Source of the DNA: Bacteroidia bacterium | GTDB taxonomy: Bacteria; Bacteroidota; Bacteroidia; Bacteroidales; Paludibacteraceae | DNA: 64,000 nucleotides | Direction: 5' to 3' | Assembly: GCA_009929375.1 (NCBI GenBank) | Contig: SAAO01000013.1 | Span: forward strand, 1 to 64,000 | Part shown: one piece after another, positions 8,331 to 20,211 of the stretch | Numbering within the stretch: the first letter of the stretch is position 1 | Layout: each line of letters starts with the position of its first letter | The notes under the pieces: model-generated | The model's database searches: none | Told to the model about the DNA's origin: nothing | The model's input: only the letters and a program-made list of their open reading frames with translations | Program-made: the position numbers and the translations under genes

Positions 8331-8828
8331 TTACAGGTGCAACAGGTAACGTCGGATTTGAGGTGATTCGTTTTTTGACAACGAATAATTCAATTCACCA
8401 TCACTCAAACGATACATTAGTGTACTTTTTATAGTATGATTCCGGTAAAGTACCAAACAAACTTTATTGGCAAAGTATGTACCACCTATTAATAGATTTA
8501 CCCTGTCTGAACTGCGGATTTTCCACACTGGATCCTCAGACAAATATCCTTCAAAATACCGTTCTAATGTGCGAACGCTATATCCACTCGACAAACTAAT
8601 TTGTTCATACGTTTGCTTACCTACTATCCAATCACGAAACCAGACAAAACGATTCTGTTTACTAATCCATGGATTGGTTCGGGTGAATAGCAGGCCACAA
8701 TTCTTACACTTGAAACGTTGTTTGTAGTCTCGTTGCCCCCAACGAATTACATCCAAACTTTGGCAACCCCAACACCTTGTTTTTCTTTTTTTTGACATAT
8801 TAAAAAAGTTTATTGAAACGAATTTCAA
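8331..8828 (-). pseudogene. Truncated transposase remnant, IS256-like variant with N-terminal zinc-binding motif
   Basis: CWGCQSLDVIRWG...FKCKNCGLLF zinc-ribbon-like start, then helix-turn-helix and LLIGGTYFANKVCLVLYR; stops after about 160 aa, far shorter than a full transposase. Confidence 0.6.
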
Positions 8829-10467: not shown

Positions 10468-11130
10468 TCAAACGAGCAGTTCTTTCAGCTTTTTCATATC
10501 AAGCACCTTGTACTCTTTTTTATTGACCTCAATCACCCCATCTTCAATCATTTCAGACAGACTTCGGGCAAGCGAAGGGCGTGCCACACCAAAAAATTCA
10601 GCCAGTTCAGTCTGGTTGCGGTTAATGCGGAAGGTATTACCCTCCACATCGGCCTGTTCGAGCAGAAAATGAGCAATTTTTCCTTTTATGGTTTTTATGG
10701 AAAGCAACTGCAGTCGGTTGGTCAGAAACTGTGTACGGTTGGCATTATGTTTCAGAAACTGCTGCATAAAATCGGGATGCGTGGTCATAAGGCGCATCAC
10801 CTCATCTTTGGGTATGCGAAGAATTTCCACATCCTCTATGGCTGTTACATCTACCGGAAAGCGGTTGTTGCTCGAAAAAATAAAAGCCGGTGCCAGCGGA
10901 CGTGGAGCGTTGATTATTTCTACGCCCAGTAAATTGCCGTTTTCGGTTATCATTTCGGTTTTTACCGAGCCTGTCATCAGTATGTAGAGGGCATCGCACA
11001 GATCACCTTGTCGGAAAATAACAGCATTTTTATTGTATGCTTTAATGCTGTATTTCAGATCCGAAGGGAATATATTGTCGCCTTCTTCTATATTGTTGAA
11101 ATCGCTCCACTCGGGATCTATTTTGTTCAT
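10468..11130 (-). CDS. Crp/Fnr family transcriptional regulator
   Basis: cNMP-binding-like N-terminus (FRQGDLCDALYILMTGSVK) and HTH (NQTELAEFFGVARPSLARSLSEM). Confidence 0.92.
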   Translation of the reverse strand: MNKIDPEWSDFNNIEEGDNIFPSDLKYSIKAYNKNAVIFRQGDLCDALYILMTGSVKTEMITENGNLLGVEIINAPRPLAPAFIFSSNNRFPVDVTAIEDVEILRIPKDEVMRLMTTHPDFMQQFLKHNANRTQFLTNRLQLLSIKTIKGKIAHFLLEQADVEGNTFRINRNQTELAEFFGVARPSLARSLSEMIEDGVIEVNKKEYKVLDMKKLKELLV

Positions 11131-11146
11131 AATTAATTTAGTTGAT

Positions 11147-11206
11147 AATGGACAATTGACAGTTGATAATTGAAAATTGTCAACTGTGCATTATCAATTG
11201 TCCATT
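11147..11206. repeat. Nested inverted repeats at the trmO stop codon and trmO-crp spacer
   Basis: AATGGACAATTGA (11147-11159) / TCAATTGTCCATT (11194-11206) perfect; inner CAGTTGATAATT / AATTGTCAACTG. Confidence 0.9.
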
Positions 11207-11881
11207 GTTAACTGTTTTTACCGATAATATATTATTCTCCACACAAAATTTTATATCAAATCCGGCAAAAGGCATTCCGTACACTCTTTCAGGATCGTTC
11301 TGATACGATGGTCGCGGATCGTGAGCCAGAATTTCAAGTAAGGCTTGCCGGTGCTCAGTTGGAATTTGTTGCAAAAGATCTTCGGGAAAATCTACTTCAA
11401 GCGTATAATTTTCGCTTTCACGGGCAAAACCACCCGAAGCTTCGGGATGTGAGTCGGAATAAGTGATATAGGGCTTGATATCGAAAATCGGTGTGTTGTG
11501 CATAAGGTCGGCTCCGCGTACATGCAGCAATGGACCGAGCGTAGGATGCATTTCCACTGATTCGAGCACAACCGACGACAAACCCAGCGAATTAGGACGA
11601 AAGGGCGAACGTGTGGCAAAAACGCCCATTCGCTTATTGCCTCCCAAACGTGGCGGACGCACTGTAGCCGACCAGCCTTTGTTCACTGCTTCTGAAAATT
11701 GCCAGATAAGCCACAGATGCGAAAAACCTTCGATACCACGGATAGCTTCAGCCTTACGATATTCCGGTTCAAATACAATTGTTCCCCTGAGTGTTGCCAC
11801 AATGCCACTCTGACGCGGTATGCCGAATTTTGTAGGAAAATCGGTGCGGATATGTGCTATGGGTTTAATCTCAAAGGTCAT
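11180..11881 (-). CDS. trmO: tRNA (N6-threonylcarbamoyladenosine(37)-N6)-methyltransferase TrmO
   Basis: TsaA fold motifs: FSHLWLIWQF, VFATRSPFRPNSLGLS, DIKPYITYSD. Confidence 0.9.
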   Translation of the reverse strand: MTFEIKPIAHIRTDFPTKFGIPRQSGIVATLRGTIVFEPEYRKAEAIRGIEGFSHLWLIWQFSEAVNKGWSATVRPPRLGGNKRMGVFATRSPFRPNSLGLSSVVLESVEMHPTLGPLLHVRGADLMHNTPIFDIKPYITYSDSHPEASGGFARESENYTLEVDFPEDLLQQIPTEHRQALLEILAHDPRPSYQNDPERVYGMPFAGFDIKFCVENNILSVKTVNNGQLIMHS

Positions 11882-12638: not shown

Positions 12639-12694
12639 CTGCAAATTATTAAATCAACATTTGATGTTCATCCCGGGTATCATCACATCAATAC

Positions 12695-12726
12695 TGCCCC
12701 AAACCCCCTAAAGGGGAGCTGTAACT
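12695..12726. repeat. C-arm/C-arm/G-arm hairpin element, copy A
   Basis: tgccccaaaccccctaaaggggagctgtaac. Confidence 0.8.
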
Positions 12727-12756
12727 TTGTGCAAATGTATATTATTTGTACAATCT

Positions 12757-12799
12757 TCACATCCCCACATCATCACATCACCTCATCAATACATCACCA
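12757..12799. repeat. 8-bp-period CACATCAY repeat tract
   Basis: cacatccc cacatcat cacatcac ctcatcaa tacatcac. Confidence 0.85.
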
Positions 12800-13009
12800 T
12801 ACTTTTCTGCAAATTTAAAAAAATACTTTCAACAATCTATCTTTTACTGTTTGCTGCAGAACATAAATTCACTGATTTAATGCATTTTTCATGTTTTAAT
12901 CTATCTGAATACAAGTGCTTTTGCGATTTTACTAAATAGTCATTAATTGTTGTTAGCAATTCAGTAAAACATGATTTTGAATAAGAAATCGTTCTGACTT
13001 TTTATAGAC

Positions 13010-14670: not shown

Positions 14671-14707
14671 AAAGAGTCTGATCAACTGGTCAGGCTCTTT
14701 TTTTTGT
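14671..14707 (+). terminator. Terminator after plsC
   Basis: AAAGAGTCTGA...TCAGGCTCTTTTTTTT. Confidence 0.7.
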
Positions 14708-14730
14708 TTTATCACATCCCCACATCAAGC

Positions 14731-14760
14731 CTGCCCCAACCCCCTTAAGGGGATGTAAAT
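14731..14760. repeat. C-arm/C-arm/G-arm hairpin element, copy B
   Basis: ctgccccaacccccttaaggggatgtaaat. Confidence 0.8.
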
Positions 14761-14820
14761 TACTTTCGTCTCCTAAATTCCTGAAACCCGGAATAATTGC
14801 AAATCACTTTGCATACCACT

Positions 14821-14870
14821 CTTTAAGCCCCTTTAGAGCCTGTCCCGATTTATCGGGAGGTTTGGGGCTG
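14821..14870. repeat. Hairpin element copy C (opposite orientation) interrupted by a nested tcccgatttatcggga hairpin
   Basis: ctttaagcccctttagagcctgtcccgatttatcgggaggtttggggctg. Confidence 0.75.
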
Positions 14871-14894
14871 AGAAGATGAAAAGTGTTTTTTATT

Positions 14895-14938
14895 CACATC
14901 ATCACATCATCACATCACCACATCATCACCTCATCAAC
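14895..14938. repeat. 8-bp tandem CACATCAT tract (5 copies)
   Basis: cacatcat cacatcat cacatcac cacatcat cacctcat. Confidence 0.92.
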
Positions 14939-14946
14939 TTTTTTCG

Positions 14947-14970
14947 AAAGTGTAACAACTGTGACACTTT
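14947..14970 (+). promoter_or_regulatory. 24-bp near-perfect palindrome, candidate Crp/Fnr-family operator
   Basis: AAAGTGTaACAacTGTgACACTTT; 10 of 12 base pairs of the dyad match. Confidence 0.6.
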
Positions 14971-14987
14971 ATCCATTTTGGGCTTTA

Positions 14988-14995
14988 TATCTTTG
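14988..14995 (+). promoter_or_regulatory. Bacteroidota -7 box (TAnnTTTG) upstream of the cupin gene
   Basis: TATCTTTG, 53 nt before the ATG at 15048. Confidence 0.55.
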
Positions 14996-15047
14996 CAGTA
15001 TCAAAAAACAAAATAATTCTCAAATAAAAATTTCAATACATAAGAAT

Positions 15048-15401
15048 ATGAGCGATTTCAAATTTGCACCCAAACAGGAAAACAAAAATTTTCCAACAGG
15101 CGAAAAGTTTTCAATGACCGAAAAAGTACAATATGCGCAGGGTTCGGTAGTGAGCAAAATTATTATCCGCAATGAACGTGGTAATGTAACCCTTTTCGCA
15201 TTCGACAAAGGTGAGTTCCTCAGCGAACACACAGCTCCTTACGATGCCATTGTACAGGTACTCGACGGTCGCGGACAAGTAGTTATCGATGGAAATCCTT
15301 TTGACCTCGAAACAGGCGAAAGCATTATTATGCCTGCCAATGTTCGTCATGCAGTTGTAGCAACCGAGCAGTTCAAAATGTTGCTAACAATGATTAAGTA
15401 A
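15048..15401 (+). CDS. Cupin domain-containing protein
   Basis: 117 aa from MSDFKFAPKQE; EHTAPYDAIVQVLDGRGQVVIDGNPFDLETGESIIMPANVRHAV cupin motifs; the longer ORF start at 14883 lies in the simple repeat tract. Confidence 0.88.
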   Translation: MSDFKFAPKQENKNFPTGEKFSMTEKVQYAQGSVVSKIIIRNERGNVTLFAFDKGEFLSEHTAPYDAIVQVLDGRGQVVIDGNPFDLETGESIIMPANVRHAVVATEQFKMLLTMIK

Positions 15402-16515: not shown

Positions 16516-17745
16516 ATGAGCGAATATATAAACAACTCCGAAGTCAGAAAAGCTAAGCTTAAAGAGCTGATTCTGAAATTACATCATGGCGGACAACAGG
16601 AAGATGTCCGTAACGAACTTTTACTCTCGCTGAGCCAGATTCCTTATGGCGAAGTGGTGGAAGTGGAGCAGGAACTTATTTCCGAAGGCTTACCCGAAGA
16701 AGAAGTGCTTGATCTTTGCGATGCACACTCAGCTGTGCTCGAAGGTCGTGTCGATTTATCGGCATTGAAACCTGTGGCTGCCGGTCATCCCGTGGATGTA
16801 TTCCGTAAGGAAAATGAAGAAATCCGTAATGTGTGTAATGCTATTTTTGCAACTATATCTGAAATTGTACATTCTTCGGACATGCAAATTGGCGACAAGG
16901 TAATGCGTTTGCGCGGATTATTCAATAGTCTGTTCGATGTGGATAAACACTATCAGCGCAAGGAATATCTGCTTTTCCCTTATCTCGAAAAACAGGGAAT
17001 CACCGGACCGCCAAAAGTAATGTGGGGCAAACACGATGAAATTCGCGATCTGATAAAAGGTGCCATCGAAGTGTTGCAAACGCCCGATATAACCAAAGAA
17101 GAATTCGAAGCTGTAGCTGAAATTGTACTTCGTCCTGCAGCCCGTGGCGCTCAGGAAATGATTACCAAAGAAGAAGAAATTCTTTTCCCAATGACACTCG
17201 ATACGCTGACCGATCAGGATTGGTACGAAATCAGCCGTCAGTCCATTGAAATCGGATTTTGTCTCTACGATCCGCAGGAAGAATGGATTCCCGAAGGTGT
17301 GGATACAAGTACCGTAACAACGGGGCACCGCAATGGCGACTTTATGCAGCTATTTACCGGAAGCTTCAATGCTGAGGAATTAACAGCTGTACTGAATGCA
17401 TTGCCTGTGGATATCACTTTTGTGGATAAGGACGATAAAGTAAAATACTTTTCGCAAACGCCCGATCGTGTTTTTCAGCGTAACCGCGCCATTCTGAACC
17501 GTGATGTACGCCACTGTCACCCGCCTGCAAGCGCTCACATTGTGGATAAAATCCTCGACGATTTCCGCAGTGGCCGCCAGAGTCGCGCTCCGTTCTGGAT
17601 CAATATGAAGGGTAAAATGATTCATATCGAGTACTTTGCACTTCGCAACGATAAAGGCGAATACCTCGGCTGTCTCGAAGTTTCGCACGACGTAACTTAC
17701 TACCGCGAACTCGAAGGCGAACAAAGAATTCTTTCGTATAAATAG
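16516..17745 (+). CDS. DUF438 domain-containing protein (hemerythrin-like plus PAS domain)
   Basis: KAKLKELILKLHHGG N-terminal domain, hemerythrin-like HKHY...E..LFPYLE and HDEIR, PAS region PVDITFVDKDDKVKYFSQ. Confidence 0.88.
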   Translation: MSEYINNSEVRKAKLKELILKLHHGGQQEDVRNELLLSLSQIPYGEVVEVEQELISEGLPEEEVLDLCDAHSAVLEGRVDLSALKPVAAGHPVDVFRKENEEIRNVCNAIFATISEIVHSSDMQIGDKVMRLRGLFNSLFDVDKHYQRKEYLLFPYLEKQGITGPPKVMWGKHDEIRDLIKGAIEVLQTPDITKEEFEAVAEIVLRPAARGAQEMITKEEEILFPMTLDTLTDQDWYEISRQSIEIGFCLYDPQEEWIPEGVDTSTVTTGHRNGDFMQLFTGSFNAEELTAVLNALPVDITFVDKDDKVKYFSQTPDRVFQRNRAILNRDVRHCHPPASAHIVDKILDDFRSGRQSRAPFWINMKGKMIHIEYFALRNDKGEYLGCLEVSHDVTYYRELEGEQRILSYK

Positions 17746-17822: not shown

Positions 17823-18338
17823 ATGGAACTAATAATAACACCCAAATCGAAAGTAATGGATATCATTAATGCATATCCTGAACTCGAAAACGAACTCGTG
17901 AACTATGTTCCCGCATTCGAAAAACTTAAAAATCCGCTTTTGCGCCATACTGTTGCTAAAGTAGCTACACTACAGCAGGCTGCCACCATTGGCAATACCG
18001 ATGTCAGCAAACTTGTCAACCGTCTGCGCGAATTGGTTGGTCAGAGTTTAGAAACCATTCAGCATCAGGAAGGCGAATATAACTATCAGCAACCGGGTTG
18101 GTTCGATGTGAACGAAATTGAACAGGAGTTTGATGTGCGCGAAATGCTGGCTCGTGGCGAACATCCGGTAGCACAGGTTATCGAAGATCTCAAACATTTA
18201 CCCGAAGCCAAAATCTACAAACTTGTAGCTTCATTTATGCCGGTTCCCCTTATCGACAAGGCCAGCGGTCTGGGTTTCACACACTGGATCAGTCCACAAG
18301 CCGACGACCTTTTCGTGATTTATTTCAGAAAGGCGTAA
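17823..18338 (+). CDS. DUF1858 domain-containing protein
   Basis: ITPKSKVMDIINAYPELENELVNYVPAFEKLKNPLLRHTVAKVATLQQAA matches the DUF1858 pattern; located next to hcp. Confidence 0.85.
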   Translation: MELIITPKSKVMDIINAYPELENELVNYVPAFEKLKNPLLRHTVAKVATLQQAATIGNTDVSKLVNRLRELVGQSLETIQHQEGEYNYQQPGWFDVNEIEQEFDVREMLARGEHPVAQVIEDLKHLPEAKIYKLVASFMPVPLIDKASGLGFTHWISPQADDLFVIYFRKA

Positions 18339-18482: not shown

Positions 18483-20153
18483 ATGAGCATGTTTTGTTAT
18501 CAATGTCAGGAGGCAGCCCAGAATGTGGGATGCACGGTGAAGGGAGTTTGCGGAAAAACTCCCGAAGTTGCAGGTTTACAGGATTTATTAGTTTATCAGT
18601 TGAAGGGTCTTTCGGTGCTGACCAAAGCCCTCAGAACACAAGGCGTGGAAGTGTCGTATGCCAACCGTTTTATCGTGGACGGGCTGTTTATGACCATTAC
18701 CAATGCCAATTTCGATTACGAACGCTTTGTTTCTACCGTACGCAAAGGTTTCGATTTGCGTGAAAAACTTGAAGCCCGCCTTGCACAACTCAACGTGGCT
18801 TTGCCTCAATCAAATACCGATATTCTGACTTGGACGGCTGCTACAGCCGAAGAAATGGAAGCCAAAGCTGCCGAAGTAAGTGTGCTGGCCACCGAAAACG
18901 AAGATGTACGCTCACTGCGCGAACTGGTAATTTACGGTCTGAAAGGTATGGCTGCTTATTGCGAGCATGCTTTCAATCTGAATTTCGAAGATGCGGGTGT
19001 GTATGCATTTATGCAGGATGCGTTGGTGGCTACTACCGACGATAGTCTAAACGCCGAACAACTCACTGCGCTTGTACTTGAAACCGGAAAATATGGTGTG
19101 CAGGTGATGGCGTTGCTCGACAAAGCCAATACCACTTCTTACGGCAATCCCGAAATTACCAAAGTAAACATTGGCGTGCGTAATAATCCGGGAATTCTGA
19201 TCAGCGGTCACGACCTGAAAGACATGGAAGAGCTGCTGAAACAAACCGAAGGTACAGGAGTGGATGTATATACGCACAGCGAAATGCTCCCGGCCAATTA
19301 TTATCCCGCATTCAAAAAATACGAACACTTTGTGGGTAACTATGGTGGTGCATGGTGGAGTCAGGTAACTGATTTTGAAACTTTCAACGGTGTAATCCTG
19401 TTTACAACCAACTGCATCGTTCCGCCACGCAAAACCGCTGGTTATGCAGGACGTGTGTATACCACAGGAGCGTCAGGTTTCCCCGGATTTAAGCATATCG
19501 AAGATCGTGTGGACGGACAGCCCAAGGACTTCTCAGCACTGATCGAACATGCAAAAACATGCAAAGCACCTACTGAGATTGAAACGGGTGAAATTGTGGG
19601 TGGATTTGCGCACGCTCAGGTTTTTGCTTTGGCCGATAAAGTGGTGGATGCCGTGAAAACAGGCGCTATCCGTAAATTCTTTGTCATGGCTGGTTGCGAT
19701 GGACGTATGAAAGGTCGCAGCTACTATACCGAATTTGCTGAAAAACTACCACAGGATACTGTGATTCTGACAGCCGGTTGCGCCAAATATCGTTACAACA
19801 AATTGCCGCTCGGCGATATAAACGGTATTCCACGCGTACTCGATGCCGGACAATGTAATGACAGTTATTCATTAGTGGTAATTGCCATGAAGCTGGCTGA
19901 GATATTTAAACTCAACAGCGTAAACGAATTACCAATTGCTTACAACATTGCATGGTACGAGCAAAAAGCTGTGATCGTTTTGTTGGCATTGCTTTATCTG
20001 GGTGTGAAAAATATTCACCTCGGACCAACGCTGCCCGCTTTCCTCTCGCCTAATGTAGCCAAAGTGCTTGTCGAGAATTTTGGCATTGCAGGCATTGGTA
20101 CTGTAGATGAAGATCTGGCTGCATTCCTGCCTGATATGGCCGAAGCAGTGTAA
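18483..20153 (+). CDS. hcp: Hydroxylamine reductase (hybrid cluster protein)
   Basis: [24 protein letters not shown]-terminal cluster motif; [31 protein letters not shown]. Confidence 0.96.
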
Positions 20154-20174
20154 GGAGTAAAACTATTTTAAACA

Positions 20175-20211
20175 AAAACAGCATTTTCCGTTTTGGAAAA
20201 TGCTGTTTTTT
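20175..20211. terminator. Bidirectional terminator between hcp and msrBA
   Basis: AAAAACAGCATTTTCC-GTTTT-GGAAAATGCTGTTTTT perfect stem. Confidence 0.9.

Follow-up and report, generated by a model that had tools for sequence, protein, structure and literature searches.

A candidate HcpR operator with fixed promoter spacing ahead of a predicted NO-detoxifying operon in a Paludibacteraceae genome

The stretch of DNA analysed here (the window, 64,000 nucleotides from a Bacteroidia bacterium) contains a palindrome upstream of a five-gene cluster that ends with hcp, which raises the question of which regulator recognizes this palindrome and in which direction it acts on the genes downstream. We concluded that the dyad is very probably an operator of HcpR, of the HcpR2 branch of the Crp/Fnr family, from which class II activation of an NO-detoxifying operon of five genes would proceed. 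The locus is a new example of a known HcpR switch, with modest extensions in operon content, in spacing fixed across the order and in the separation of the regulator from its site. The features are collected in Table 1.

Table 1. Positions of the regulator gene, the candidate operator and the associated features in the window
Feature	Position	Strand	Description or basis
Predicted HcpR orthologue, Crp/Fnr family	10468..11130	-	Helix GVARPSLAR; Met60 = P. gingivalis Met68; profiles, alignment
Terminator-like hairpin, 13 pairs	14671..14700	+	After upstream acyltransferase gene
Dispersed CATCACATC repeat	14893..14945	.	Abuts operator on the side where relatives carry hcpR
Candidate HcpR operator, 24-bp dyad	14947..14970	+	Genome-unique; core near-invariant in 26 genus loci
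Operator 18-bp core GTGTAACAACTGTGACAC	14950-14967	+	Part of 24-bp dyad
-7 box TATCTTTG, sigma-ABfr type TAnnTTTG	14988..14995	+	Position shared by 25/26 genus loci
Inferred transcription start region	14998..15001	+	From box position; ~15000 if dyad centre = -41.5
Cupin, first operon gene	15048..15401	+	Pfam PF07883; first gene after dyad in genus loci
4Fe-4S dicluster protein, 305 aa	15469..16386	+	Orthologues in genus and Bacteroidales
DUF438 + hemerythrin + PAS protein	16516..17745	+	Domain profiles
DUF1858 + DUF2249 protein	17823..18338	+	DUF2249 match below curated cut-off
hcp, hybrid cluster protein / hydroxylamine reductase	18483..20153	+	NCBIfam NF003658, TIGR01703 above cut-off
Strong intrinsic terminator-like hairpin, 17 pairs	20174..20210	+	After hcp

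Both sequence elements named in the preliminary description, the dyad and the TAnnTTTG box, are present where it had placed them. As read from the window, the dyad AAAGTGTAACAACTGTGACACTTT is centred on 14958.5 and its arms pair at 10 of 12 positions, the mismatched pairs being 8 and 12. The first T of the box lies 29.5 nt from this centre, and the dyad would be centred at about -41.5 if transcription started 5 nt after the box. The core GTGTNACANNTGTNACAC occurs without mismatch at a single place in the window, which is also its single place in the genome of 3,868,148 bp, whereas a first-order Markov estimate gives 0.0002 exact cores by chance in the window and 0.012 in the genome, and 0.0004 per genome for dyad and box at the exact spacing. 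When three mismatches were allowed, the core pattern fell to background (2 seen, 2.67 expected); information is therefore carried by exact and near-exact matches only, and the statistical weight comes from the exact match, its position and its conservation.

The signature residues of the HcpR2 branch (R180/P181, CRP numbering) and its consensus motif, GTAACnnnnGTTAC, have been published (PMC1274295). The core in the window departs from this motif at one position (GTAACAACTGTGAC), and the genus consensus matches it exactly, which places the site among HcpR2 operators. In the right half-site the window has G at a position that is T in 24 of 26 relatives, so its operator may fall short of the consensus in strength. 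The TGTGA found in this half was also considered as a CRP-type element and dropped by eye, with no TCACA partner at CRP spacing. With three mismatches the composite of dyad and box was at background level in every genome, hence only matches with zero or one mismatch were used. Dyads with two mismatches elsewhere in the same genome (contigs C40, C58 and C64) were dropped as regulon members after their surroundings had been read, because none recurs as a composite with the box at zero or one mismatch.

With the Fe-S orthologue as bait, 48 genomes of the genus yielded the cluster. The genus was taken to be Paludibacter by inference, since Paludibacter genomes account for most of the named relatives closest to the Fe-S protein. 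The dyad was found with at most two mismatches in the 26 loci having the upstream region (consensus GTGTAACAnnTGTTACAC), with 12 core positions identical in all 26 and most of the spacer and flanks much less conserved. In 25 of them, TAnnTTTG starts at a distance of 29.5 nt from the centre of the dyad, and the single exception has TACCTTCG at the same position. Across these alignments the spacing is conserved as strongly as the sequences themselves, which fits the requirement of an activator that touches RNA polymerase. Genomes of the genus encoding HcpR mostly carry a dyad without mismatch (28/36), as against 1 of 12 genomes without HcpR. A chance palindrome, as the background frequency of the three-mismatch pattern might suggest, is scarcely credible given the low expectation for the exact core, and conservation at one position upstream of orthologues already contradicts it. 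A spacer block between operator and -7 box, ATTGTTT-like, is also conserved in relatives (G in 23/26, T in 25/26 and T in 26/26); the window has TCCATTT at this place (14972-14978, +13.5 to +19.5 from the dyad centre).

The same arrangement was sought across the order in a blind scan of 393 Bacteroidales genomes for GTAACnnnnGTTAC-N22-TAnnTTTG, with the reversed pattern as control. The scan returned 72 sites in 57 of the 393 genomes, compared with 4 for the control. In 30 loci retrieved from it, the first gene was that of the same Fe-S protein (11), hcp (7) or a gene for a small ferredoxin (4), and the remainder included loci with a DUF2249 or DUF2492 protein first. Among 80 named loci around relatives of the Fe-S protein, the exact composite was present in 25 of 31 with a divergent HcpR and in 4 of 45 without an adjacent HcpR (p about 1e-10, a statistic that ignores shared ancestry). 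Six of the 31 appear to lack it; L161 does have the site, outside the counting window, and the other five have a dyad or box with small changes. Across Bacteroidales 28 hcpR-adjacent dyads were found, and boxes stand next to 26 of them, all 26 at 29.5 nt. The presence of the dyad thus tracks HcpR in genus and order at the sequence level, and the class-II-like spacing, fixed across the order in these genomes, is new here. Conservation upstream of orthologous clusters had been named beforehand as the check on the site; the check was passed, with the same spacing throughout the genus and across Bacteroidales. In another set of Bacteroidales loci (L172, L174, L175, L193, L194, L200 and L201), genes for Fe-S, DUF438, DUF1858 and cupin proteins are clustered, some without hcp, and neither HcpR nor the dyad is present; another regulator probably serves these lineages.

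The Crp/Fnr gene that the preliminary description had located on the minus strand was confirmed. Its product contains the sensor beta-barrel (PF00027) and the HTH_Crp domain (PF13545), both above cut-off, and among PDB structures it is closest to P. gingivalis HcpR 9day (E 5e-27) and 1o5l (E 4e-26). R184-P185 in the recognition helix corresponds to the HcpR2 signature; in the aligned set of 62 regulators, R is invariant and P occurs in 60. Met60 aligns with the heme-linked Met68 of P. gingivalis HcpR; Met is found here in 45 of 62 relatives and Ile in a dysgonomonad-type group. The genomic link with hcp expected of HcpR2 was also found, the gene being divergent to an hcp-containing cluster in genus and order relatives. 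Since the HcpR2 recognition helix is present and the motif equals the published HcpR2 motif, its assignment as an HcpR orthologue is supported, more firmly than the HcpR-like role first suggested. That this protein activates the cluster through the dyad likewise gained support from conservation, the R-P helix and the HcpR2 motif.

Another Crp/Fnr paralogue or dimeric regulator could instead bind the dyad, the proximity of hcpR being coincidental, as two more full Crp/Fnr genes (on C45 and C38) are present in the genome and hcpR does not adjoin the dyad. However, the helices of these two proteins, TSRESVSR and MTTSNAIR, have no R-P, which the 10468-11130 protein alone carries within its genome; dyad presence follows HcpR presence in genus and order; and in 29 of the 30 genus genomes with both on one contig, the distance from hcpR to the dyad is no more than 183 bp. 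We regard this alternative as quite improbable and HcpR as the candidate regulator. One locus of Parabacteroides sp. PH5-46, and likewise one of Dysgonomonas sp. 521, contains two HcpR paralogues; the R-P paralogue adjoins a GTAAC-type dyad, and the R-S paralogue a GTGATAAATGTCAC dyad beside its own hcp (L176:10904-11693, L184:10650-11440). Judged from these sequences, the paralogues are a natural specificity pair in one locus, and the pairing fits the published proposal that residue 181 determines base recognition by HcpR (PMC1274295).

The locus shares with the HcpR2 regulon described by Rodionov et al. in 2005 (PMC1274295) the R180/P181 branch, the motif, the hcp target and the setting in anaerobic Bacteroidota. 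In contrast to the prediction of hcp alone in most Bacteroides, hcp is here the last of five operon genes, hcpR is non-adjacent, and the spacing between box and operator is documented. The closest solved structure, 9day, belongs to the P. gingivalis HcpR-hcp system (PG1053; PMC12750200), in which HcpR activates hcp on NO and Met68 is needed for activation. In P. gingivalis HcpR, position 181 of the helix is Gln and the motif is divergent (PMC1274295), whereas the window protein has Pro; the P. gingivalis His149, reported as not conserved, is Gln141 here. In B. thetaiotaomicron, where hcpR lies upstream of hcp, its deletion abolishes hcp transcription (PMC13370916), hence HcpR is an activator in this phylum; the predicted DNA contacts Pro187, Ser188 and Arg191 of that HcpR (PMC13370916) correspond to the R-P-S-L-A-R helix here.

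HcpR might instead repress the operon when NO is absent, a mode of action open to a palindromic operator close to a promoter. In 13 of 26 genus loci, a TAnnTTTG is present on the side of the dyad that faces hcpR, at 25.5 or 17.5 nt, nearer than on the operon side and as expected of a repressor overlapping its own promoter; the closest relatives of the window have no such second box. This hcpR-side geometry would suit autorepression. On the operon side, however, the distance is fixed at 29.5 nt, as required for class II activation and matching that position, and loss of HcpR in B. thetaiotaomicron does not derepress hcp (PMC13370916), while P. gingivalis HcpR raises its expression (PMC12750200). 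Repression of the operon is therefore very improbable, and activation by HcpR is preferred.

The inverted repeat could also function at the RNA level, with or without HcpR. A SnoA-like antisense RNA, whose 3' hairpin the repeat would form, is one such possibility. In B. thetaiotaomicron, where this has been proposed, the SnoA transcript runs antisense to the promoter of hcp, and the HcpR site falls at its 3' hairpin (PMC13370916). The window has a different gene cluster. An Rfam search of the window gave no match, and no evidence for a SnoA-like RNA was seen; the dyad keeps its phase with the -7 box and not with a conserved antisense promoter, as far as seen here, a DNA-protein model already accounts for both arms being invariant, and SnoA was called clade-restricted in its own report (PMC13370916). 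An RNA element is thus unlikely, and would not exclude HcpR binding, with which it is compatible.

The genes downstream are those that had been claimed, cupin, Fe-S, DUF438, DUF1858 and hcp, all on the plus strand (Table 1). The hairpin after the acyltransferase gene is predicted to isolate them from upstream transcription, and no comparable hairpin was found between the operon genes; from its layout, the operon is likely to be transcribed from the dyad promoter as a single unit extending through hcp, although further promoters could lie in the internal gaps, which measure 67-144 bp. The cupin, Fe-S, DUF438/hemerythrin and DUF1858 genes ahead of hcp, as read from the window, are new here, and a literature search for work linking DUF438, hemerythrin and hcp found none among the papers covered. 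In the window and in L166, the Fe-S gene is followed by DUF438/DUF1858 genes; most of the genus loci examined showed none at that place, so operon content is variable. In Desulfovibrio, the cupin-fold Ddes_1828 and hcp Ddes_1829 are consecutively numbered and NO-induced, and HcpR was studied as the regulator (PMC5701242); the place of the cupin in the operon is less odd for this reason. The Desulfovibrio HcpR differs in being deltaproteobacterial, with an FNR-like motif, another phylum and another promoter type (PMC5701242).

Considering the above results, we regard the following model as highly probable. Under nitrosative stress, NO would bind the heme of dimeric HcpR, which would then bind the palindrome about 41.5 bp upstream of the start; heme, NO sensing and hcp activation are taken here from the literature on relatives. 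As a class II activator, HcpR would help the sigma-ABfr RNA polymerase at a promoter with a good -7 box and a -33 region occupied by the operator, and the cupin, Fe-S, DUF438/hemerythrin, DUF1858 and hcp genes would be switched on as a single NO-detoxifying operon. The site, its conservation and fixed spacing, the identity of the regulator and their co-occurrence were obtained by computation. Starting from the locus itself, we infer HcpR binding, the start site, the single transcript and the class II contact. In most relatives the operator lies between divergent hcpR and the operon, and here, with the two separated, hcpR would act in trans over 3.8 kb.

The hcpR-to-dyad distance is 3,819 bp in the window and 21-183 bp in the 29 other genus genomes with both on one contig, and in the relatives' loci examined hcpR is divergent from the operon. 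Here hcpR comes after a HAD-like and a TrmO-like gene (both named by eye), with genes for a pentapeptide-repeat protein and an acyltransferase lying between hcpR and the operator. The repeat abutting the operator has many copies in the genome, one also upstream of the HAD-like gene. A similar separation was found in L170. In our reading of these sequences, the separation is a repeat-associated rearrangement. Tentatively, one operator may serve two divergent promoters in many Paludibacter, with the operon activated from about -41.5 and hcpR self-repressed from about -37.5 or -29.5, and the rearrangement may have removed hcpR from this loop in the window, leaving a trans-acting, differently controlled regulator; if true, the window lineage would be a natural rewiring of the NO response. 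Colinear dispersed-repeat copies at 12679-12821 and 14716-14958 flank the pentapeptide and acyltransferase genes; they consist of CTGCCCCAA.CCCC..AAGGGG and CATCACATC arrays, both multi-copy in the genome. An inverted repeat at 11140-11213, with arms 76-87% complementary, overlaps the TrmO-like gene at its end and the interval separating this gene from hcpR, which is the upstream region of hcpR, and an ORF at 8331-8828 resembles by eye an insertion-sequence transposase, with a zinc-ribbon start and a helix-turn-helix.

Activator-dependent promoters are poorly defined in this phylum, and the candidate HcpR operator offers a fixed, testable promoter geometry. It would tie unassigned, NO-linked genes, those for cupin, the 305-aa Fe-S protein, DUF438-hemerythrin-PAS and DUF1858/DUF2249 to the HcpR response across Bacteroidales, and the composite of operator, 22 nt and TAnnTTTG appears specific enough for predicting HcpR targets in unannotated genomes. 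Within the genus, one sub-clade has a conserved TTGTAACATTTGTTACAC dyad, not found in the window's own genome, ahead of a gene that by eye resembles one for a TonB-dependent receptor; it occurs in genomes G024, G025 and G034 (L052, L053 and L060), and the dyad is also present in G004 (C25:91770). By its sequence, this dyad is a possible second HcpR target.
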